NCBI GenBank assembly: GCA_018970325.1
Contig: JAGWWP010000006.1
Location: forward strand, 1-64,000
Reading direction: 5' to 3'
Origin: Cyanobacteria bacterium REEB446
Lineage (GTDB): Bacteria > Cyanobacteriota > Vampirovibrionia > LMEP-6097
DNA length: 64,000 nucleotides
Of the stretch, positions 262-48,028 are shown piece by piece; the first letter of the stretch is position 1, and every line of letters starts with the position of its first letter. Made by a program: the position numbers and the translations under genes. The notes under the pieces were generated by a model that made no database searches, was not told where the DNA came from, and saw only the letters and a program-made list of their open reading frames with translations.

Positions 262-1767
262 CTAAGCTAAATAACTATTAAGCTGAGTTACGCTTCGCAG
301 TGCATCCTTTATAGATACACCTTTCAAGTAATTACCCACTAAGTGTATTTTAGAATTATCTGCCCTAAGCTGCTTTTGTAAATCTTCGATTAGTTTTCCA
401 TGCCCTAAGTTAAGCTGTGGAATAGCTTTATCTAAAACTTTAATATCTAATAACTGAAAATCCTCTTTCTGGAGAGGCTCTTTAGCCCAGTCTTTATAAA
501 TTAAACTAAGCTCTACTGTTAATTCATTCCAGATTTCTTGAGTATCTTTATTTATAATGCTTGTATTTAAAGCCCCACCAATAAAGCTAATATGCAGATA
601 TTCATCATCTAAATTCCTCTCACTGAAAAGCTCTGAAGCCCATATAGAACCTAAAACTTTCATGGAATCGTCAGCTGATAAAAAACCAAAACCTTTTAAT
701 TCTTTCTTTAATTTAGATTTAGGTAAAATATAGGCACAGAGTGCAATTGGTGCATATTCTATACTCGCCAAGCTGGCAGAAACATTAGAATCTAAATCTG
801 CTAAAAGCTTAGCTGCGACATACGCTGGAGAGGCGATAATCACAGACTTCGCCTTAAAATCACCTTGATTAGTCTTTAAAAGATAATAGTACTGCTCCTG
901 AATTGAAAGCTCTGCGTTTTCGCCATTTTCATTATGCACCTTTAAAATAGACTCCACTTCGGCATTAAGCTTTAAAGACTCAGTTAATTCATCCGCCATT
1001 TTCTGAGTTAATGACTGCAAGCCATTCTTAAACGACAGTGTAGATTTATTTTTACTAAATTTTTGTTTCAAAGATGACTCCAACTCAACTTCATCTGAAA
1101 TCACGCCTTTGAAAAGATTTTTAGAAACTCGTGAAATAAAACCCTGAAAGATATCAATAATGAAGCCAAAAAAGATCGAACCAGATTTTTTTTCAAGTTT
1201 CACTAAATTACTCAAAGCAATATTCGCCGACAGTCTAGAAATATCTCCCGCCCAAACTCCCTTAAGAAAAGTTTTCACTAAAACATCAGTAAGCTCAAGC
1301 CCAAATTTCCTTTCACAAAACTGCCGAACAGACTCTTCAGTATTTAAATTTTGCTCTGCTGGTCTGAGACTAAGAGCTTTATGGAAAAATGGTTCTAGAA
1401 AAATTCTCAAAAAGCCGAGTGTCGATAAAACACCTGAATTTAAAAGCTGTAAAGGATTAGACCTCAATTCAATTAATTTATGATGATGATAGATATAACG
1501 CTTCGCAGATGAAAGCAGGGATGATAATAATTCATCTTCCATTCCTAAATCTTCAATTAAAGCAATTAATTCATCAGAGTTACTTAAAATAGTATTAGGT
1601 CCTAGCTCATAGGTGGAAGTCTTGTATTTAAAGCTACTCCACGTACCGCCGACCACTGCAGCTTTTTCTAGAATAAGTACTTTAAAACCTTTTTTCTTTA
1701 ATTCATAAGCAGCATAGAGACCAGATATTCCTCCACCGACGATAATAAAGTCATAAAGCATAACCAA
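262..1767 (-). CDS. hemY: FAD-dependent protoporphyrinogen/coproporphyrinogen oxidase (HemY-like)
   Basis: N-terminal dinucleotide-binding motif DFIIVGGGISGLYAAYELKKKGFKVLILEK, then VGGTWSSF and ELGPNTI; C-terminal HLVGNYLKGVSIKDALRS typical of HemY. Start may be the internal MLYDF. Confidence 0.8.
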   Translation of the reverse strand: MVMLYDFIIVGGGISGLYAAYELKKKGFKVLILEKAAVVGGTWSSFKYKTSTYELGPNTILSNSDELIALIEDLGMEDELLSSLLSSAKRYIYHHHKLIELRSNPLQLLNSGVLSTLGFLRIFLEPFFHKALSLRPAEQNLNTEESVRQFCERKFGLELTDVLVKTFLKGVWAGDISRLSANIALSNLVKLEKKSGSIFFGFIIDIFQGFISRVSKNLFKGVISDEVELESSLKQKFSKNKSTLSFKNGLQSLTQKMADELTESLKLNAEVESILKVHNENGENAELSIQEQYYYLLKTNQGDFKAKSVIIASPAYVAAKLLADLDSNVSASLASIEYAPIALCAYILPKSKLKKELKGFGFLSADDSMKVLGSIWASELFSERNLDDEYLHISFIGGALNTSIINKDTQEIWNELTVELSLIYKDWAKEPLQKEDFQLLDIKVLDKAIPQLNLGHGKLIEDLQKQLRADNSKIHLVGNYLKGVSIKDALRSVTQLNSYLA

Positions 1768-1946
1768 AACATATCATGAGACTATTACCTATCTCCAATT
1801 TCTGCGTTTTCCTTGCCTTCAAGTACTAAAATTTCTAAAAAAAATCTAAAATCAAAGGTTATAAGTAAAGCTAGATCTAATCTTTACCGATTCAAGCATG
1901 ATATAATCACACAAAGAAATTAGTTGAATATTTTAGGAGGTAAAAT

Positions 1947-6421: not shown

Positions 6422-6470
6422 GGGGTGTGTAGCCAAACTTCAATTTCTGCGTTTTCGTCGTCCTCATGAT
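6422..6470 (-). repeat. dispersed GAAAACGCAGAAATTGGAGTT-family repeat copy
   Basis: 6434-6470 is an exact reverse complement of 13231-13267 (37 nt). Confidence 0.85.
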
Positions 6471-6503
6471 CGTCATGTACCCGCAGCATGTTAAAATCTT
6501 AAT

Positions 6504-12046: not shown

Positions 12047-13203
12047 TGCAGTACTCTAAAGGCACTAATTTCTCCGAGGCATTTCATCATCAAAGCTCGA
12101 AAATAAATAATAATTCTAAAATTAAAACTTAAATAGCTGATTAAGCTTAAACACATTAATGATAGTAATTTTAAAATTAAATAAACTGGAATCGCCATAA
12201 TTTTCATACTTAAAAACTGTTTTAAAACTTTTGGCAGCTTCCTTATCAGAAACACTGGCATGCCGATCATCCCTGCTTGCCCATTTTCAAAAAGATCTGC
12301 CCGATTGAAAGCTAACCAAGTGAGGCTTTTCCCAGATTTAAAATACCAATCACAGATATATTTTCCACTCATTCTTTGCTTAGTTACAGGGTGGGTAACT
12401 TGAGTATCACCCCAATAGTAAATAGAAACCTGCTCTTTTAAAGCTGTTCTGAAAAATTCAGTATCTTCATGCAAGCCAAAACCCAGAGCAGAGCTGCCTA
12501 CGCCTAATTCAGTATTAAAAATTCCTATTTTTTCAAACACCGATCGAGAAATTAACATCACAGCACCAATTGGATTCGCTACTTTTAAATTTTCAAAAAC
12601 GAAAGGATATGTTCGGCTCTCTGAACCATAATCGTGTGAAGGAAAAACCGAAGGACTTAATGCAAAAGGTGGTTTAAAGCTGAGCCATTTTGGTTTTTCC
12701 GACTCCCACTCTGGAACAATCCTAACCGAAGCAATAAAAGGCTCAGTCACTAAAAGTCCCCGCAGATTCATTAATAAATTTAATAAAAACGAATCTGCAA
12801 GACGAATATCATCATCTAAAAAAACAAGATATTCACCAGTAAACTTTTCAATCGCAGCATTACGAGCGTGAGACAGACCTTGTTTTTTTTCAAAAATATA
12901 AATAGCTGAGTATTTCACCCTAGTATTTAAATTATTTGAGGGCAAAGAAGCGAAATGCAATTCAAATTTTTCAATAAACGATTTATAACATTCTTCTGTA
13001 GCATCATTAGAATTATTGTTAATCAACAGAAATTCAATTTCTAACAATTTGTTCAGTATTCCACTCTCAGCATCAATCTCTTGATTAATAGTCCAAGAAT
13101 TTAAATAAGACCCAAGTTCATTACACTGTTTAAAAAAATCTTCTGTTACTAATTTTAAATAGCTCAGGCGATTATAAGTACATATAGCGAAACTGATTTT
13201 CAT
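12043..13203 (-). CDS. family 2 glycosyltransferase
   Basis: MKISFAICTYNRLSYL, NAAIEKFTGEYLVFLDDDI; overlaps the stop of the neighbouring ORF. Confidence 0.85.
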   Translation of the reverse strand: MKISFAICTYNRLSYLKLVTEDFFKQCNELGSYLNSWTINQEIDAESGILNKLLEIEFLLINNNSNDATEECYKSFIEKFELHFASLPSNNLNTRVKYSAIYIFEKKQGLSHARNAAIEKFTGEYLVFLDDDIRLADSFLLNLLMNLRGLLVTEPFIASVRIVPEWESEKPKWLSFKPPFALSPSVFPSHDYGSESRTYPFVFENLKVANPIGAVMLISRSVFEKIGIFNTELGVGSSALGFGLHEDTEFFRTALKEQVSIYYWGDTQVTHPVTKQRMSGKYICDWYFKSGKSLTWLAFNRADLFENGQAGMIGMPVFLIRKLPKVLKQFLSMKIMAIPVYLILKLLSLMCLSLISYLSFNFRIIIYFRALMMKCLGEISAFRVLH

Positions 13204-13230
13204 TAATTTTAGGAATTACCGCAGAAAAGA

Positions 13231-13280
13231 ATCATGAGGACGACGAAAACGCAGAAATTGAAGTTTGCGAGCGGTCCCAT
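13231..13280 (+). repeat. dispersed GAAAACGCAGAAATTGGAGTT-family repeat copy
   Basis: ATCATGAGGACGACGAAAACGCAGAAATTGAAGTTTGCGAGCGGTCCCAT; 37 nt identical in inverse orientation to 6434-6470. Confidence 0.85.
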
Positions 13281-25681: not shown

Positions 25682-26455
25682 ATGAAAGAAAGATTCCTTA
25701 TCATCACAAATGGCAAAATCCAGTCTCCCACTGCTTTACAGTCTTCTTTTCGCAAATTTACAAATTTCAATCTTGATAACAAAAGCTTTACTATTATCTG
25801 CGCAGATGGCGGCATTCACAATGCAACACAATTATCATTACAAGCTGATTATTTAATTGGTGACTTTGATTCTATTGATGAAAAGCTACTTAAAGAAATA
25901 AAAAAAGACCGCAGCGTACTCAACGCCGAAATTAAAGATTGCGAGCAGTCCCCTGAGATAATCTACGACTCTGATCAAAGCAAGACAGATACTAGGCTTG
26001 CTATAGAGTTAGCACTAAAGTTAGCTGCTGAAGATATATATATTATTACTGCAACGGGTGGACGCATGGATCACTGCCTCTCTAACATACTAGAATTGAA
26101 GTTCATTAACGATAAAGCCTCAGTCAGCCTCATAGACGAGTATTCAGAGATTAAGTACAGTACTAAATCCCTTGAGCTTCGCGGCAAGATTGGTGAAACC
26201 CTGTCTATCATTCCCTTAAGTGATATTAAAGAGCTTAGCTATGAAGGCTTAAAATATCCATTAGATAAAGCCGATATTAGGGCAGGTACTTCACTAATTT
26301 GTAATAAATTTTCAGAGAATCAAGCTAGAATTAGCTTTAAGAGCGGAGAGATATTAATTATCAGAGCTCATGACGCGGGCGAAAACGTAGAAATTGGAGT
26401 TCGCGAGGCAGGCGAAAACGCAGAAATTGGAGTTCGCGAGCAGTGCAATGATTGA
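25682..26455 (+). CDS. thiN: thiamine pyrophosphokinase
   Basis: ICADGGIHNA, YLIGDFDSI, KTDTRLAIELAL, TATGGRMDHCLSNI; C-terminus carries two repeat-derived 11-aa units. Confidence 0.85.
   Translation: MKERFLIITNGKIQSPTALQSSFRKFTNFNLDNKSFTIICADGGIHNATQLSLQADYLIGDFDSIDEKLLKEIKKDRSVLNAEIKDCEQSPEIIYDSDQSKTDTRLAIELALKLAAEDIYIITATGGRMDHCLSNILELKFINDKASVSLIDEYSEIKYSTKSLELRGKIGETLSIIPLSDIKELSYEGLKYPLDKADIRAGTSLICNKFSENQARISFKSGEILIIRAHDAGENVEIGVREAGENAEIGVREQCND
26375..26440 (+). repeat. two tandem 33-bp copies of the dispersed repeat
   Basis: GCGGGCGAAAACGTAGAAATTGGAGTTCGCGAG + GCAGGCGAAAACGCAGAAATTGGAGTTCGCGAG, in frame in thiN (AGENVEIGVRE-AGENAEIGVRE). Confidence 0.92.
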
Positions 26456-27920
26456 TCAAATAGACTACTGGATTATAGCTTCTTACATCGCCCTAGTGAT
26501 GTTTATCGGAATTTTTAATTCAAGAGATGAAAAGAAAAGCTTAGAAAATTTTTTTCTAGCAAGTAGGAAGTTAACGATTCCCGTTCTAGTAGCTAGTTTA
26601 ACGACTACTTGGTATGGAAACATACTCGGATCTAGCGAAATGGCTTTTAAAAATGGCTTCGGCTATTTTCTTACTCAAGGAATATTCTGGTATGCGGCAG
26701 CTTTTATCTTCCTAATCTTTCTAGCTCCTAAATTAAGCAGACTCAGCCTCTACACTCTCCCTGAGTTAATCGCGAAAAGATTCGATGACAGAGCTGGTGT
26801 AGTAGCGGGATTTATAAATCTCATTATGCTAAATATAGCTCCCTACTTACTTTCTCTAGGTTTAATTATCAGCTACATTTTCCACATAGATAAAACCACA
26901 GCGATACTTATAGGCGCTGCCATCCCACTTATCTACACCATCAGAGGCAGCTTTCAGACTGTAATTCTAACGGACGTGGTGCAGTTCGTTTTAATGTTTC
27001 TTGGTCCAGCAGTTTTACTGAGGTTCGTCTTCGATCAGCATGGTGGCATAGATTTTCTTCAATCCAAATTAGACCCGAGTTTATTTAAACTCAGTGGTTA
27101 TATGAGTTTTAACGAGATTATCAGCTGGGGCATAATCGCTCTCTGGACTTTAGTCGACCCGAATTTTTACCAAAGATCTTTTGCCGCTAAGACACAGAAA
27201 AGCTTACAGTGGAGTATTTTTCTTTCTATTATCTGCTGGATTGTATTTGACATAATGATTACGGCACTAGGATTGTACGCTAGAGCCTTAGACCCAAGTA
27301 CAGACCCGAGCTTTTCTATATTAGCTCTCGCCCAAAGTCATCTAGGTAAAGGCTTTTTAGGCTTATTTATAGTAGCCTTTACTTCTATAATCATGTCCAC
27401 TATAGATTCACTAAGCTTCACTAGCGGCATGACGTTCTCTTTAGATATAGTTGGACGTATTAAAAACTCTTTTAAATCTCGTGCCATACAGCTTAGAAAA
27501 GATGCGCCTAAATTAAGCCTTACCGTAAAAAGCTCTACCCTAGATAGACCAAGAGAAGAAACTATTTTTTACACTCGCCTCGGAGTCTTTTTATTTACTA
27601 CTATCGGTACAGTGATTGCGATCTATTCAGAATCTATTATTGGTCTGATTTATACCATGGGTTCGCTTGGTGTGGCGAGTTTACTAATTCCTTGTCTAGT
27701 AGCACTGTTCATTAAAAGAACTGTATATCACTCGCGCAATGTAGCTTTCTATTCAATGCTTAGTTCCTTTGCTGCTTCCCTTGCTTGGATTAGCTTTAAT
27801 AAAATATTTTTAGATATAGATACTTATCTATTTGATATACAGCCGATTTTTATCGGCTTAGGAGTTTCTATGCTTTGTTTTGTGATTGATGGGATCAGGA
27901 TTATTAAAGAGAAGTTTTAA
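26448..27920 (+). CDS. sodium:solute symporter family protein
   Basis: SSS-family topology; KKSLENFFLASRKLTIPVLVASLTTTWYGNILGSSEMAF. ORF track start 26394 lies inside the repeat; ATG at 26448 (MIDQIDYWIIASY) is more likely. Confidence 0.83.
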   Translation: MIDQIDYWIIASYIALVMFIGIFNSRDEKKSLENFFLASRKLTIPVLVASLTTTWYGNILGSSEMAFKNGFGYFLTQGIFWYAAAFIFLIFLAPKLSRLSLYTLPELIAKRFDDRAGVVAGFINLIMLNIAPYLLSLGLIISYIFHIDKTTAILIGAAIPLIYTIRGSFQTVILTDVVQFVLMFLGPAVLLRFVFDQHGGIDFLQSKLDPSLFKLSGYMSFNEIISWGIIALWTLVDPNFYQRSFAAKTQKSLQWSIFLSIICWIVFDIMITALGLYARALDPSTDPSFSILALAQSHLGKGFLGLFIVAFTSIIMSTIDSLSFTSGMTFSLDIVGRIKNSFKSRAIQLRKDAPKLSLTVKSSTLDRPREETIFYTRLGVFLFTTIGTVIAIYSESIIGLIYTMGSLGVASLLIPCLVALFIKRTVYHSRNVAFYSMLSSFAASLAWISFNKIFLDIDTYLFDIQPIFIGLGVSMLCFVIDGIRIIKEKF

Positions 27921-32860: not shown

Positions 32861-32895
32861 GGGCGTGTAGCAGAACTCCAATTTCTGCGTTTTTA
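32861..32895 (-). repeat. dispersed repeat copy between convergent csaB and flhB
   Basis: GGGCGTGTAGCAGAACTCCAATTTCTGCGTTTTTA; supplies the TAA stop of flhB. Confidence 0.8.
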
Positions 32896-33975
32896 CCTGA
32901 AGGTCTTTTTCTTAACCTTATAAACGAATAGAAGAACTTCTGCCACTGCTTTATAGAGCTCCGGAGGTATCTCTTGGTTAAGTCTTACTAGCCTGAATAA
33001 AGCCCTAGATAAAGGGATATTCGTAATAATCGGAATATTATAAGCTTCTGCTATTTCTATAATCTGCTGGGCGATTATCTCAGAACCCTTCGCTAAAATT
33101 ATCGGAGCCTTGCTCATCTGATCATCATATTTAACAGCTAAAGCTACGTGTTCTGGGTTTTTAACGACAAAATCTGCTTCAGGTACTTTCTGCAAGCCGC
33201 TTCCACCACCACCTTGAGAGATTTCTCGCTGCTTCTGTCTACGTTTAGATTTAATTAAAGGATCACCCTCGGTACTTTTGTATTCATCCTTCATCTCTTT
33301 AAAGCTCATTTTCTGATCTTTCATGAACTTCCATTTTTGAAATAAAAAATCAACAATAGATACAGCAAAAAGTAAAATCGTACTTTTCCAAAAGAAATCC
33401 CAGAGTACATTAGCAACAGACACAAAGCCAGCAAGCTTATTAGAAGCATCTATATTACCAAGTATCGCGGGCAAATGCTCTTGAACAGTAAGGAAAGCAA
33501 TATAACCAACAGCTATAACTTTCACAAGACCTTTCCCAAGCTCAAATAGAGACTTTACGCTAAGCATATTTTTTAATCCCTTAATCGGATCTAACTTATC
33601 AAGCTTAAACTGCATGGGTTCAGTAGTGAATAGAATTCCCCCTAGCTGAAGTACTTCAATAATCACCGCTACAATTACAAGAGCAACCATAATCGGAACA
33701 AGAATTAATAAAATAGTTTTCCAAGCATGGAAAATAATAAACTGATTACTAACTTTTTCAAAATCACCAATACTTCCCCAAAAAACTTTACAAAGATCCA
33801 TCAGAAGCTTAAACATATAAGTTCCGAAATTAAAAAGACAGACAAAACCCACTATCTGAACGGCAAGAGAAGTCAAATCCTTGCTTTTAAAAACACTACC
33901 CTTTTTACGAGCTTCATTTAGCTTATGCTGAGTAGCTTCGAATTGTTTATCATCACTATCTTCATCGCCAGACAT
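32893..33975 (-). CDS. flhB: flagellar/type III export protein FlhB
   Basis: EATQHKLNEARKKGSVFKSKDL, MKDEYKSTEGDPLIKSKRRQKQRE, C-terminal KNPEHVALAVKYD (variant of NPTH). Confidence 0.87.
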   Translation of the reverse strand: MSGDEDSDDKQFEATQHKLNEARKKGSVFKSKDLTSLAVQIVGFVCLFNFGTYMFKLLMDLCKVFWGSIGDFEKVSNQFIIFHAWKTILLILVPIMVALVIVAVIIEVLQLGGILFTTEPMQFKLDKLDPIKGLKNMLSVKSLFELGKGLVKVIAVGYIAFLTVQEHLPAILGNIDASNKLAGFVSVANVLWDFFWKSTILLFAVSIVDFLFQKWKFMKDQKMSFKEMKDEYKSTEGDPLIKSKRRQKQREISQGGGGSGLQKVPEADFVVKNPEHVALAVKYDDQMSKAPIILAKGSEIIAQQIIEIAEAYNIPIITNIPLSRALFRLVRLNQEIPPELYKAVAEVLLFVYKVKKKTFR

Positions 33976-42619: not shown

Positions 42620-43822
42620 TCAATTCTTAAAAATCTCCAAAAAATCTTCATCCTCTTCCATATCCTCAAATTTAATAAATTTAATTAAACGCCCTCTGTA
42701 ATCTAGCTCCCCACTAATATTTTCATTAATAACGAAACAGCGTTCTGTACTCGGATATGAACGCAAAAAATGCTCAAAAGCTTTAGGTATAAGCATTTGC
42801 TTTAGCTTAGATTTAACTTCTATAATACTCGGCTTGCGATTTTTAATATAAATAAAATCTATTTCATTACCATCTTTAGTTCTCCAGAAACGTATCTCAG
42901 AGTTTTTAGGTGCTCGCATTCTTAAAGCATTGTGCACATAGGATTCATATAAAAGCCCCTTATCTGATCTAGCTTTCAATAAAGAAAAATCACTAATAAT
43001 AGAATTTCTAATTCCATTATCAAATAGAAAATATTTTTTAGATTTTTTCAGCTCATTACTGAGATTTTGCGAAAAACTATAAAGCGGATAAAGCACGAAA
43101 GTCTGTTCCAGTATTGCCAAATAATGCTCCGCAGTCTTATTACTTACCATTAATTCACGCGCAAGAGAGCTCACTGAAACAATTTGAGCTTGAGTATCAG
43201 CTAAAATATAGATTAAGCGATTAAAGGCTGGAATATTCTCTTCTTTAATTAGGCTTTTAATATCTTTCAGGATATAGGTAGCGACTAGGTTATCAAGCAA
43301 ATCAATTTTCTGATCATTAGTTTTCAAATGAATCAAACCTGGTAAGCCACCATAAATTAAATAGCTTTCAAAAGTTTTTTTTGTCTGTTTAAATTCACTA
43401 AAACTGAGCGAAAATATATGCTTCTCAATCTTTCTTCCAGCAAGGCTTTCCTTTAAATGTTTATGCATTTCCAAGGAAGAGGAACCTGATGCAATAATTT
43501 TAACTTTCAATTTCCTATCATCAAAAATAGCTTTAAATAAACTAGAAGCATTTTCAAAATATTGAAATTCATCAATAAAAATAAAATCTGTGTTCTTTGT
43601 AATATCCTTATATAGACTGACTAAGTCTTGATTAAAATAACGACTATCTTCGGGAATCTCTAAATTAAAATATTTAGTTTTTTTCTTCTTCGCTTTAGCA
43701 AATTTCTCAAGCTCAATCATTAAATGGGTTTTACCAACCTGCCTTGCACCAATCAAGATCAATATCTCACTTTTTTTCAAGCACTTAATTAAATCATCGA
43801 AAGAATCTCTCTTCACAAGCAT
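42620..43822 (-). CDS. AAA ATPase with DUF4143-like C-terminus
   Basis: LIGARQVGKTHLM, FIFIDEFQYFE, IASGSSSLEM, WRTKDGNEIDFIYIKNRKPSIIEVKSK. Confidence 0.87.
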   Translation of the reverse strand: MLVKRDSFDDLIKCLKKSEILILIGARQVGKTHLMIELEKFAKAKKKKTKYFNLEIPEDSRYFNQDLVSLYKDITKNTDFIFIDEFQYFENASSLFKAIFDDRKLKVKIIASGSSSLEMHKHLKESLAGRKIEKHIFSLSFSEFKQTKKTFESYLIYGGLPGLIHLKTNDQKIDLLDNLVATYILKDIKSLIKEENIPAFNRLIYILADTQAQIVSVSSLARELMVSNKTAEHYLAILEQTFVLYPLYSFSQNLSNELKKSKKYFLFDNGIRNSIISDFSLLKARSDKGLLYESYVHNALRMRAPKNSEIRFWRTKDGNEIDFIYIKNRKPSIIEVKSKLKQMLIPKAFEHFLRSYPSTERCFVINENISGELDYRGRLIKFIKFEDMEEDEDFLEIFKN

Positions 43823-43844
43823 ATATTACTATTTTACCCAAGTA

Positions 43845-43878
43845 CTCCAAAATAGTAAATTTTTGACGATTTTGGAGT
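43845..43878. promoter_or_regulatory. inverted repeat upstream of AAA gene
   Basis: ACTCCAAAAT ... ATTTTGGAGT, followed (minus strand) by GGGTAAAATAGTAATAT-ATG. Confidence 0.8.
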
Positions 43879-43890
43879 GACGAGGAAAAC

Positions 43891-45036
43891 CTAATCCGAT
43901 AGAAATCCTGTACCGATAAAGCTTTTAGTATCCACGATAAACTTCTGAGCATCTACATATTTTTCAGAAAAAGTTTTAGGAAATCTATACTTCGCCCCAG
44001 AACGATATTTGAATTCAAAACACTGAAGATTTTTTTCTCTCCCCCAATCTTCCACTAAATCTATTTCTTGATTATCATAATTTCGCCAAAAATAATAAGA
44101 GGGGTTATAACCCTGATAGTAATTAGATTTCATCCTTTCAACAATTGCAAAATTCTCCCAAAGCTGCCCAATATCCGTCCTTAAGTCCAAATCATTAAAA
44201 TCATTAATCAGTGAATTCCTTATACCTAAATCATAAAAATATATTTTTTGACTTTTCTTTATCTCATTACGTAGATTCTGAGAGAAAGAACTTAATCTAA
44301 AAATTACAAAGCTTTTCTCTAAGATATCTACGTATTTAATTACAGTAGCTTGATCTAAACCTAAAACAGTAGCGATCTCGTTATAGGAAACTGTAGAAGA
44401 GATTTGATAAGCAAGTAACCTTAATAGCTTAATTAAATAATCAGATTTTTTTATGCCAGATATACTAAGTAAATCTTTAAAAAGATACTGCTCAGTAATT
44501 TCATTTAAAGCATCTCGAATATCTTCAGCCGCCAAATCATAGATTCCTGGATAGAGACCATATTTAAGAGCGTGCTTCATATTACGGCTCAGCTCAAGTG
44601 AGTTATCACTAAGCTCCGTGATAGATAGGGGATACAGCGTAAAACTATAAGACCTGCCAGTTAAAGGTTCATTCACTATATTAGCTAAATCAAAGCTGCT
44701 AGAGCCTGTGGCAATAATCTGTGTATCAGTCAAATTATCCACTAGAATCTTTAATTTAAGACCAATATCTTTTATTCTCTGAGCTTCATCTATAACTACT
44801 AAATCACTTGAGCCAATCAAAGCTTTAAGCTCAGTAAAATTTTTAGCTCCCTCGAAAGCTGCCTGCACGTCATATTCATCTGCATTTAAATATATAGACT
44901 TAGATGCAGGATAATCACGCATTAAAGCCTTTACCAGTGTAGTTTTTCCAACTTGCCTTGCACCATAAATAAGCAAGGCCTTTCCCTTAAAAAGCTTTTT
45001 CTTGATTCTTGCAAATATTTTACGCTCATAAAGCAT
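43891..45036 (-). CDS. AAA ATPase with DUF4143-like C-terminus
   Basis: LLIYGARQVGKTTLVKAL, DLVVIDEAQRI, IATGSSSFDL, WRNYDNQEIDLVEDWGREKNLQCFEFKYR. Confidence 0.87.
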   Translation of the reverse strand: MLYERKIFARIKKKLFKGKALLIYGARQVGKTTLVKALMRDYPASKSIYLNADEYDVQAAFEGAKNFTELKALIGSSDLVVIDEAQRIKDIGLKLKILVDNLTDTQIIATGSSSFDLANIVNEPLTGRSYSFTLYPLSITELSDNSLELSRNMKHALKYGLYPGIYDLAAEDIRDALNEITEQYLFKDLLSISGIKKSDYLIKLLRLLAYQISSTVSYNEIATVLGLDQATVIKYVDILEKSFVIFRLSSFSQNLRNEIKKSQKIYFYDLGIRNSLINDFNDLDLRTDIGQLWENFAIVERMKSNYYQGYNPSYYFWRNYDNQEIDLVEDWGREKNLQCFEFKYRSGAKYRFPKTFSEKYVDAQKFIVDTKSFIGTGFLSD

Positions 45037-45053
45037 CTAATCTAAAATTTTAC

Positions 45054-45085
45054 CCTAATTTTCCGATTACAATCCAAAAATTAGG
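45054..45085. promoter_or_regulatory. inverted repeat upstream of AAA gene
   Basis: CCTAATTTT ... AAAATTAGG overlapping GGGTAAAAT (minus strand) before ATG at 45036. Confidence 0.75.
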
Positions 45086-45124
45086 AGCTTTTTTCGGGTT
45101 TCTTGGTGAGAACATTGCTTTCAG

Positions 45125-45281
45125 TAATTTATTAGCATCGATTATCAGCTCAAACTCTTTTACACAAGCCGCCCTGTAAATATCATAGTTTATCCTCTGT
45201 AGAGAATTTAGCTAAAGAGCTAAAAGCCTTCTCCAAGGTATTCGTATGTCTTGTGAAGTACTCTAAATTAATTTTACTCAT
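45125..45281 (-). pseudogene. decayed hepT copy with internal 234-bp deletion and frameshift
   Basis: Near-identical to parts of 47585..47969; junction at a CGATTAT repeat; 2-nt deletion creates a stop. Confidence 0.85.
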
Positions 45282-45358
45282 AATATCCCTCTCCACAAGC
45301 ATATATTACTATTTCACCCAACTACTCCAAAATAGTAAATTTTTGATGATTTTGGAGT
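45282..45358. repeat. duplicated AAA-gene leader (inverted repeat, GGGTGAAAT box, first codons) fused to the hepT relic
   Basis: ACTCCAAAAT/ATTTTGGAGT and AAGCATATATTACTATT match 43819-43880 almost exactly. Confidence 0.85.
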
Positions 45359-45390
45359 GATAGGGAAAAATGGTAAGTTAATTCATATAG

Positions 45391-47238
45391 TTAGGAATCA
45401 CATTTTCCTTTAAGATCTTTCTGCCACTTACGTTCTAGCTCTCTATACCAAACTGGTTTAGTCTTCATCAGACTCTCAGGCAATTTAGCACCACAAAGAT
45501 ACTTATAAGATTTATTTTTTTCTACATATTCATTAGATTTATCTATCAAAGTTGTATTGCGAAGCTGTGTCCAAGTAAGATTTTTAGCATCTGCTAAATT
45601 AGCATTCGTAAAAATAGTAGCAAATAATTTAGCATCTTCAAAATTAGCCTTAGATAAATTTGCATCTTCAAAATTAGTACCAAATAAAGTAGTCTCATTT
45701 AACTCTGCATTTTCTAAATCAGCGAAATGTAAACATGCACAAGACAAATCAGCTCCCCTTAAATTAGCTTTCTTTAAGGAAGCAGCCTCTAATTGTGCTC
45801 TCACCAGAAAAGTAAATTTTGCAGATAATAAATTAAGGTCTAAGCCCTTTTGACCATACTCACCAAAAGGGATAACCTGCTTATATAAAGATTTTTTTTG
45901 ATCATATTTATCCTTTTCCGACAGATTCTTTTGAGAATCAATATTATGCATTCTCTCAAAATAAAGAGGTGGTGGTGATGATAAATGAGTTCCAGAAGGT
46001 ATTTTTAAGCCTGATATCGAGCTTGTTATTATATTAAAACGTGAAGCCCAAAATGAAGCACATAATGACGAGCCGCCAAAGACTAGAAAATCTATAATCA
46101 GGACTATTACGATTATAAGTAATGGTCGAGAAAGTAATAATAAATTGTTCTCTGCTTCATTTAATCCAGTTTTAAAGTTTTTCCAAGAAGCTATTAACGG
46201 ATCTATTGCAGCTTTGTTGTCCACATTCTTGAGTTTTTTTTCAAGAACTTGAACGTCTTTTTTTTGCTGTCCTAAGCTTAGCATCGCCTTTAGAACTAAA
46301 TATATTACTGGCAAGCGTTTCTCTGATGTAATTACTAGCAAGAGCTTACTTAACTCTAAGCAAGCTAAAGTTACAAGAGAAACGACAAGAATGGAAAAAA
46401 CGGTCACAAAATAATATATTGGAGTATCCAAGAAAAAACAATAAAAAACTCCTAAACTACCAGCTGAAAGAATTACAAAAAATACTATATAGGAGAAACA
46501 GGAAAAGGGAAAAGTGTGTGCTGCTCGAACAGTTAAATACCCCAAGGACTTATGCAAAATATTGTCACAAAAAGACCAAATCATCATCAGCAGCAAATAA
46601 GGTATTAAAATCCAAAGAGAATTAGCCAAATCATGCTTTGGTAAAAATCTATAAATTAATATAGCTAATGTAAAAGGAGCTAAAAGGTATAACTGAGCAT
46701 AATAAATCAATGCACCAAAGCTAGATACCGAATCACGATAAGTCTTTAAATATGGTGAAAAACTAAGAAGCAAATAGTAAGGTGCTCCTAGAGCAATCTT
46801 TTCATGAATAGCTTTCCCATCTTGAAATATTAGAGGTAAGCTAGAGATTTCTTTCCAGAATTTTGCTAAATGTAGATGCTGATAGCAGGAAAGTATCAAT
46901 AAAGCAATTGGAGCAATTTTAAAAAATTGGCTAACAGAGACTTTCAAGCTAATTATAGGTAATTCTGTGGTTGAAAAGATACCTAACAAATCAAGATCTT
47001 GAATGCTAGAAACTTGGCATATACAAAAAACACAAAATATCGTAAGTGTTAAACTCGCAGCTTTGATAGATTTTGATAAATCTGAAAGTCTATCAAAGAC
47101 TGGTTCATAGAAAAATTCTTGACCATTAAAGCTTTTAACCTCTCCTTTCCAGTCCGAGATATCAGCACCAATGAGATCTTCAGGGAAAAGTTTATTAGGG
47201 TCTTTATCTGTTAGTTTTTTACCTATATAATCAGCCAC
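45391..47238 (-). CDS. multi-TM protein with C-terminal pentapeptide repeats
   Basis: KANLRGADLSCACLHFADLENAELNETTLFGTNFEDANLSKANFEDAKLFATIFTNANLADAKNLTWTQL; several TM segments upstream; GTG start with GAGGTGA SD. Confidence 0.85.
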   Translation of the reverse strand: MADYIGKKLTDKDPNKLFPEDLIGADISDWKGEVKSFNGQEFFYEPVFDRLSDLSKSIKAASLTLTIFCVFCICQVSSIQDLDLLGIFSTTELPIISLKVSVSQFFKIAPIALLILSCYQHLHLAKFWKEISSLPLIFQDGKAIHEKIALGAPYYLLLSFSPYLKTYRDSVSSFGALIYYAQLYLLAPFTLAILIYRFLPKHDLANSLWILIPYLLLMMIWSFCDNILHKSLGYLTVRAAHTFPFSCFSYIVFFVILSAGSLGVFYCFFLDTPIYYFVTVFSILVVSLVTLACLELSKLLLVITSEKRLPVIYLVLKAMLSLGQQKKDVQVLEKKLKNVDNKAAIDPLIASWKNFKTGLNEAENNLLLLSRPLLIIVIVLIIDFLVFGGSSLCASFWASRFNIITSSISGLKIPSGTHLSSPPPLYFERMHNIDSQKNLSEKDKYDQKKSLYKQVIPFGEYGQKGLDLNLLSAKFTFLVRAQLEAASLKKANLRGADLSCACLHFADLENAELNETTLFGTNFEDANLSKANFEDAKLFATIFTNANLADAKNLTWTQLRNTTLIDKSNEYVEKNKSYKYLCGAKLPESLMKTKPVWYRELERKWQKDLKGKCDS

Positions 47239-47242
47239 ACCA

Positions 47243-47554
47243 TCACCTCAAAACCACATAAGCTTCAAAAATCCCCTCATGAAAGCTCTCTGGCAACCGA
47301 GCCCAATCAAACACATCTATTAAAATCGGAATATTAGATTCTTTAAGAGCATCAATAAAATCTGCAAAAGCTCCTACAGGTATAGGCTTCAAATCAGCAG
47401 ACCGTAAAACTATATCTAAATCACTGCTTTCATGAGCATTTCCAGTAACCCGCGAACCATAAGCCCAGATAGAAATATCGGGTAAATATTCATCTGCTAT
47501 TTCCAGTAATCTTAATTTATCTTTTTCTCTTAGAAATAGCTCAGGCTGTTTCAT
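47243..47554 (-). CDS. mntA: MntA-type nucleotidyltransferase antitoxin
   Basis: GSRVTGNAHESSDLDIV fits GS-X10-DXD. Confidence 0.87.
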   Translation of the reverse strand: MKQPELFLREKDKLRLLEIADEYLPDISIWAYGSRVTGNAHESSDLDIVLRSADLKPIPVGAFADFIDALKESNIPILIDVFDWARLPESFHEGIFEAYVVLR

Positions 47555-47969
47555 TTAGAGCCTCTATAGTTTCGGCTAATTTATTAGCATCGATTATAAA
47601 CTCAGGAATTAAACTTAAAGTTTCATTCGCAAAATTAACTCCGTAATCATGTGCCGTTTCATTACGGCTATCACGATACTTAAACCATCTTTCAGTTTCT
47701 TCTAGGCTCAGTAAACCATGCTTACTAGCACTGCGGAAAACGTCCTTAAAGTTCATCGTATCTAACTCTCTAGCTAAGGCAAAATATGGCTTTAAAGCTC
47801 TTCGTAATAATTTAACTGACTGTTCGATTATCAATTCAAACTCTTTTACACAAGCTGCCCTGTAAATATCGTGGAGTTCATCTTCTGTAGAGAATTTAGC
47901 TAAAGAACTAAAAGCCTTCTCCAAGGTATTCAGGCATCTCGTGAAATACTCTAAATTAATTTTACTCAT
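47541..47969 (-). CDS. hepT: HepT-like HEPN toxin / nucleotidyltransferase substrate-binding protein
   Basis: RNETAHDY fits RX4HXY; overlaps mntA by 14 nt. Likely start MSKINLEYF at 47969; ORF track start 47993 is inside the dispersed repeat. Confidence 0.85.
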   Translation of the reverse strand: MSKINLEYFTRCLNTLEKAFSSLAKFSTEDELHDIYRAACVKEFELIIEQSVKLLRRALKPYFALARELDTMNFKDVFRSASKHGLLSLEETERWFKYRDSRNETAHDYGVNFANETLSLIPEFIIDANKLAETIEALNETA

Positions 47970-47970
47970 A

Positions 47971-48010
47971 ATTGCACTGTTGCCAAACTCCAATTTCTGC
48001 GTTTTCTTGG
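47971..48010 (-). repeat. dispersed repeat copy between argG and hepT
   Basis: Minus strand GAAAACGCAGAAATTGGAGTTTGGCAACAGTGCAAT. Confidence 0.82.
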
Positions 48011-48028
48011 CAGCAGTCCCCTTTTAAA

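Follow-up and report, generated by a model that had tools for sequence, protein, structure and literature searches.

A probable mobile palindromic element, read in frame within unrelated proteins of Caenarcaniphilales genomes

Introduction

Why does a thiamin pyrophosphokinase gene (thiN) end in two almost identical 33-bp units, in frame, whose core recurs at dispersed sites nearby? The window analysed here, 64,000 nucleotides of contig JAGWWP010000006.1 from Cyanobacteria bacterium REEB446, had been given a preliminary description in which the units were taken for a 33-bp repeat family resembling the Rickettsia palindromic element (RPE), invading unrelated proteins in frame. The tandem is real, but the 33-bp unit was not borne out: the element is a 121-bp hairpin that inserts with a 5-bp target duplication, and the thiN tail, like most copies in the window, is a worn right half of it. 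As an overall explanation, we consider it quite likely that this is a non-autonomous mobile hairpin, here named the Caenarcaniphilales palindromic element.

Results

The thiN tail and other copies in the window

The thiN tail units (26375–26407 and 26408–26440) carry two differences, GCG/GCA and GTA/GCA, and are read as AGENVEIGVRE-AGENAEIGVRE. The thiN frame continues through the second unit and the right arm to a stop at 26453–26455. In the closest relative, G001, there is one unit and not two, and the thiN of G006, a genome from a different genus of the family, has no repeat and ends IIRAYD-stop, so the units are not conserved in a repeat-free ThiN orthologue. The 33 bp is the period of a local duplication of the worn 121-bp element in this tail. 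Further upstream, the older internal copy of ThiN coincides with a 12-residue gap in an aligned solved homologue (PDB 3lm8).

Recurrence of the core within the window also held up, with seven matches to a 21-nt core (≤3 mismatches) and none in 100 shuffles; the two diverged copies suspected near 891–924 and 25919–25951 are genuine and encode NGENAELSIQEQY in ORF 262–1767(-) and RSVLNAEIKDCEQSP in ThiN (Table 1). The idea that the repeat misleads the start call of the downstream symporter is reasonable. Its mechanical ORF begins at a TTG (26394) lying inside the repeat, and the ATG at 26448, conserved in G001, is the likely start as judged from sequence. Separately, 85–98 bp direct repeats (D2, D4, D9 and D17; ~90% identical) lie at 43805–48010, probably derived from paralogous genes.

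Table 1 Element copies and associated genes in the window
Feature	Position	Strand	Remarks
Diverged copy, in frame inside ORF 262–1767(-), NGENAELSIQEQY	887–992	-	
Right half just upstream of ORF 262–1767(-)	1778–1816	-	Core match
Right half, intergenic	6422–6486	-	Core match
Shortened copy, intergenic	13188–13279	+	Core match
thiN (thiamin pyrophosphokinase), host of tail copy and internal copy	25682–26455	+	Pfam TPK_catalytic, TPK_B1_binding
Older thiN-internal copy with an internal deletion, encoding RSVLNAEIKDCEQSP in the frame typical of the family	25910–25951	+	Gap in homologue
First 33-bp unit, thiN C terminus, worn right half, AGENVEIGVRE	26375–26407	+	In G001, not in G006
Second unit and right arm CGCGAGCAGTGC	26408–26447	+	Extra 33 bp not in G001
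Downstream sodium:solute symporter gene (likely start)	26448–27920	+	Pfam SSF
Right half directly 3' of the stop of ORF 32893–33975(-)	32861–32895	-	Empty site in G001
Miniature copy, both arms kept (GGGGACTGCTGCCAA ... TTGGCAACAGTGC) around core	47973–48021	-	Also in G001

Copy number, unit length and ends

Genome-wide, the core is far above chance, as expected of the dispersed family first proposed: the 2.25-Mb genome (G000) holds 259 matches (≤3 mismatches) against none for a reversed-pattern control. It is similarly dense in two further genomes of the genus, G001 having 176 matches and G002, which is half complete, 105, and the named records that carry it are Candidatus Melainabacteria/Caenarcaniphilales metagenome-assembled genomes. 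We surveyed about half of G000 (1.20 Mb) and of G001 (1.19 Mb) in stretches, the genomes being fragmented metagenome assemblies with ORF-based gene calls, and obtained 268 hits, 78 of them full length.

Full copies are uniform in length (45 of 46 in an initial sample). The intact element spans 121 bp (columns 2–122 of the alignment) and forms an end-to-end hairpin. A perfect 5-bp target duplication flanks 19 of 70 full copies, where 0.87 are expected (z = 11.4); the signal is confined to one register and its equivalents, which exist because the ends of a palindrome can shift together. Since 121 + 5 = 126, every insertion adds 42 codons.

The remaining hits include 162 right halves, 27 left halves (many of which belong to longer forms), short hairpins that have lost the apex and a long form whose apex is extended by 66–78 bp. 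When long elements with a left half at one end and a right half at the other were sought, this apical insertion was all that emerged. The long-form apex holds a second quasi-palindromic unit of ~66–78 bp, GTAATTTCCAGCGATGCCGAGCATGCGAC...AAGCTTGATTTATCAAGCTTAC, whose own apex covaries and which is present at L116:9690-9895, L128:4780-4990, L133:5330-5540 and about ten other sites.

Placement in genes

In-gene hits are sense in 121 of 124 cases and, where a long flanking ORF is present, share a single frame in 103 of 106. Stop codons alone do not account for this bias, since several frames of a half-copy would permit read-through. For an unbiased test, 126 bp was removed from each intact copy and the empty site checked for an ORF. 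Such an ORF surrounds 27 of 70 sites, 26 of them sense and in one phase (p ~1e-19), and ORFs stay open with the insert in that one of the six possible combinations of orientation and frame. Because 64% of random positions fall in such ORFs, as against 27 of 70 here, most other in-gene insertions must have been lost. Intergenic copies in codirectional gaps have no orientation bias (27:28); insertion therefore does not set orientation, and the in-gene frame bias reflects selection.

Length behaves in the same manner. Tandem pairs are spaced by a multiple of three in 15/15 in-gene cases vs 7/13 intergenic ones. Copies in genera g3 and g5 (G004 and G006) come in various lengths, yet the five that lie in genes all measure 121 bp and occupy the sense frame; the in-gene share is 5/13 for 121-bp copies vs 0/45 for other lengths (p = 2.8e-4), a limit that fits 121 + 5 = 126 as a multiple of three. 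An element that is dispersed and invades unrelated proteins in frame, as originally proposed, is thus well supported by the in-gene counts; only the conserved right half had then been noticed, and about half of the copies are intergenic. Among intergenic copies of G000 and G001, far more lie in convergent gaps than in divergent ones (53 vs 14), which suggests promoter exclusion or tolerance near terminators.

Host proteins

Across about half of the two genomes, 94 genes carry in-frame copies, genes for essential enzymes among them. Hosts include glutamyl-tRNA synthetase (GltX), a class I aminoacyl-tRNA synthetase of the I/L/M/V group, GMP synthase (GuaA), a RadA-like ATPase, TrmD, PriA, photolyase, LpxB and Sua5. 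When host proteins are aligned with solved homologues, the alignment is interrupted at the insert (GltX 76–122, GuaA 114–191 and TrmD 75–122), with flanks aligning on both sides. The preferred frame reads as an open, charged, hydrophilic peptide, GTARKRTSSRLRRTNDRSVLNVHEDHEDDENAEIGVCEQS, and the motif DDENAEIGV recurs in many proteins. Codon-level constraint on the insert was not seen: gene and intergenic substitution spectra are equal, with no synonymous excess. The simplest reading, predicted from the sequence, would be a tolerated passenger peptide. TrmD (L101:14248-15150:-, residues 213–251) and GuaA (L123:13014-14879:+, residues 389–419) each have a further stretch absent from solved homologues, perhaps an older insert.

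Fold and covarying arms

On the strand read in genes, the whole length of the element folds into a rod-like hairpin with conserved internal loops. Its terminal arms are highly variable yet complementary, and they covary: the 16-bp basal stem is hypervariable, with two-sided changes in 15 of 16 pairs. Over the entire structure there are 153 two-sided cells vs 37 in shuffles, a signal lost in slid structures, and 92.1% of cells are paired on the sense strand vs 88.1% on the antisense, which fits slightly more poorly. The 5-nt apical loop is likewise hypervariable above an apical stem that covaries. In the conserved middle, G.A/A.G double mismatches recur at three-base intervals, separated by single Watson–Crick pairs (columns 33–45 with 79–91); the matching stretch of more distant copies often looks, by eye, like a plain stem with a different sequence in each copy.

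Sense-strand mismatches over all sets comprise 113 G-T vs 37 A-C, counted over related copies that are not independent. There are four common arm types and many rare ones, each rare type complementary to itself only. At one GltX insertion, G000 and G001 differ at the same site by three compensated pair differences and one uncompensated. We place more weight on the number of arm types and on this GltX site because the shuffle tests ignore kinship of the copies and so overstate significance. An Rfam search of element-bearing loci matched no family at the element.

Gain, loss and range

The element is mobile. Orthologous sites of close relatives differ by gains or losses, including, in genes, differences of exactly 126 bp next to an existing core; further cases comprise a 201-bp long form with its empty site and intergenic differences of 40–56 bp, one of them at 32861–32895 of the window. 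Among full copies, 28 of 70 lie ~5 bp downstream of the right end of another copy (core spacing 123–129), which suggests insertion next to an existing element end.

Searched with a covariance model built from the genus, all nine genomes of its own taxonomic family (f1) and the four tested genomes of f8 contain the element family, and 83 further genomes of the class gave no match. This range over f1 and f8 makes the element old, with a fold that outlives its sequence. The 5-bp duplication recurs in G004, other genera giving no clear signal. Phage and plasmid collections held no record matching the consensus, and a search of the accessible literature for such a repeat in Melainabacteria/Vampirovibrionia found none.

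Discussion

A proposed mechanism and its alternatives

We tentatively propose that the identity of the element resides in its fold, a plausible idea that falls short of probable: putative machinery would recognise the folded sense strand with its conserved internal loops, the fold would serve to repair the arms, and a total of 126 bp would make insertions readable. Independently of this idea, and as part of the overall explanation held quite likely above, the 121-bp element inserts with its 5-bp duplication, often ~5 bp past the right-hand end of a copy already present; judging by the counts, insertions in the one readable frame would be tolerated as passenger peptides and others purged. Older copies would then shrink, in frame where they lie within genes, to right-half scars such as the thiN tail, a step partly visible in the copies described above. 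Recombination between two adjacent cores may remove the left arm of the newer copy, so that right halves remain; this would contribute to the predominance of right halves. A folded single strand, DNA or RNA, may be what is recognised during movement, and arm mismatches would be corrected through the fold, by repair or template switching, with arms diversifying yet staying complementary.

The fold-based proposal has a conventional counterpart, possible though rather doubtful in our estimate, in which the element is an ordinary miniature inverted-repeat transposable element (MITE): subfamilies with fixed terminal repeats, moved by ordinary double-strand-DNA transposases since lost or unassembled, whose arm variety is subfamily history tidied by template-switch correction. 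Terminal inverted repeats with a 5-bp duplication and the existence of four common arm types speak for it, and it needs no new mechanism. It sits less well with the many rare arm types complementary only to themselves, the three compensated changes at one orthologous GltX site, the excess of G-T over A-C on the sense strand, internal loops that are conserved while stems vary across genera, and the lack of an autonomous partner in the sequence searched. Covariation could also arise with no folded intermediate, if template switching by itself corrected the arms or if copies descended within arm subfamilies. Movement by a RAYT (Y1_Tnp) transposase, as in REPINs, would account for dispersed palindromes and single-strand folding; it is very unlikely here, given the target duplication, and is contradicted for current activity by the absence of PF01797 matches in the three genomes of the genus. 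We give hardly more than token credence to a short retroelement copied by target-primed reverse transcription. Right halves would then be 5'-truncated copies, in keeping with 162 right vs 27 left halves, but they have no target duplications (a 5'-truncation signal was looked for and none found), and the genus's three genomes have no RVT_1 match, which contradicts the idea unless an unrecognised reverse transcriptase exists.

Two further alternatives concern the fate of in-gene copies. Such copies might be removed before or during translation, by RNA excision or ribosome bypassing, to leave a protein without the insert; the element is a strong hairpin within coding sequence, and ribosome-bypassed, untranslated hairpin insertions are known from Magnusiomyces mitochondria, as cited in PMC6649704. 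Removal needs no open frame, single orientation or multiple-of-three length, however, all three of which are observed, and shortened in-gene copies also stay in frame, making it highly improbable. We see similarly little prospect that selection maintains the insert as a tag or domain with a role in the cell. A single frame and the presence of DDENAEIGV in many proteins speak for it; against it, half of all copies lie between genes, in-gene and intergenic copies show the same substitution patterns and no surplus of synonymous changes, and close relatives differ by gains and losses of copies.

Searches for a mobiliser covered several enzyme classes. RAYT (PF01797) has 0 matches in G000, G001 and G002, other genera of the family having 2–6; reverse transcriptase (RVT_1, PF00078) has no match in the three genomes of the genus, and rve is nearly absent from it. 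No autonomous transposon with the element's ends was found in the stretches read of these fragmented assemblies. A single intact DDE_Tnp_1 copy in G000 was considered and rejected, its ends (GGGCTGTCTCATTC, ISAs1-like) being unrelated to the element. A genome of family f8 (G015, 2.5 Mb) holds ~40 near-identical copies of one DDE_Tnp_1 insertion sequence.

Relation to known systems

In behaviour, the closest parallel that we found is RPE. RPE (Ogata et al.) are described as palindromes of ~105–150 bp, inter- and intragenic, in frame in unrelated conserved enzymes (PMC2229807, PMC10969869), with a conserved open reading frame and a target duplication listed as '?' (PMC2229807); 19 reading frames are reported as hosts, and the palindromes are reported to lose repeat identity over time (PMC6649704). 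The present element is alike in being a dispersed palindrome whose 121 bp falls within that size range, with an open frame, in frame in unrelated conserved proteins. Unlike RPE, it belongs to a different phylum (Melainabacteria/Caenarcaniphilales records), has a defined 5-bp target duplication, occupies 94 genes in half of two genomes rather than 19 reading frames, and has arms that vary yet covary about a fold conserved across genera. It works as RPE does, yet seems to constitute a family of its own whose fold is conserved. We file it as RPE-like and MITE-like, and not as RPE, because the taxon differs and the comparison covered behaviour, not sequence; the RPE concept invoked at the outset is thus replaced by a family of its own with hypervariable covarying arms, not RPE by descent as far as testable.

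Known MITEs (Correia/NEMIS, ERIC and YPAL; PMC2229807) share its short length, non-autonomy, terminal inverted repeats, target duplication and occasional gene fusion; the element differs in a 5-bp duplication without terminal TA, a 121 + 5 bp length divisible by three, variable arms and the lack of any related transposon found. Nematomorpha mitochondria have coding inverted repeats whose arms stay complementary, with template switching proposed as upkeep (PMC6649704). Those palindromes also lie in protein-coding genes with complementary arms, but form no dispersed sequence family with target duplications, whereas the element has a conserved core. REPIN/RAYT systems likewise consist of dispersed palindromes thought to move as folded single strands; the element differs in its in-gene copies, target duplication, greater length and occurrence in a genus without RAYT.

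New here are the fold-preserving variable arms, a defined target duplication, a tested length rule and the scale. RPE has so far been a Rickettsia curiosity; in this separate lineage the same protein invasion occurs on a larger scale, by an element whose ends and target duplication are defined and in which nature has itself put the multiple-of-three rule to the test. Arms varying in step make hairpin movement and persistence directly testable. In these genomes the practical effect is that gene callers mis-set starts and protein families acquire spurious motifs.
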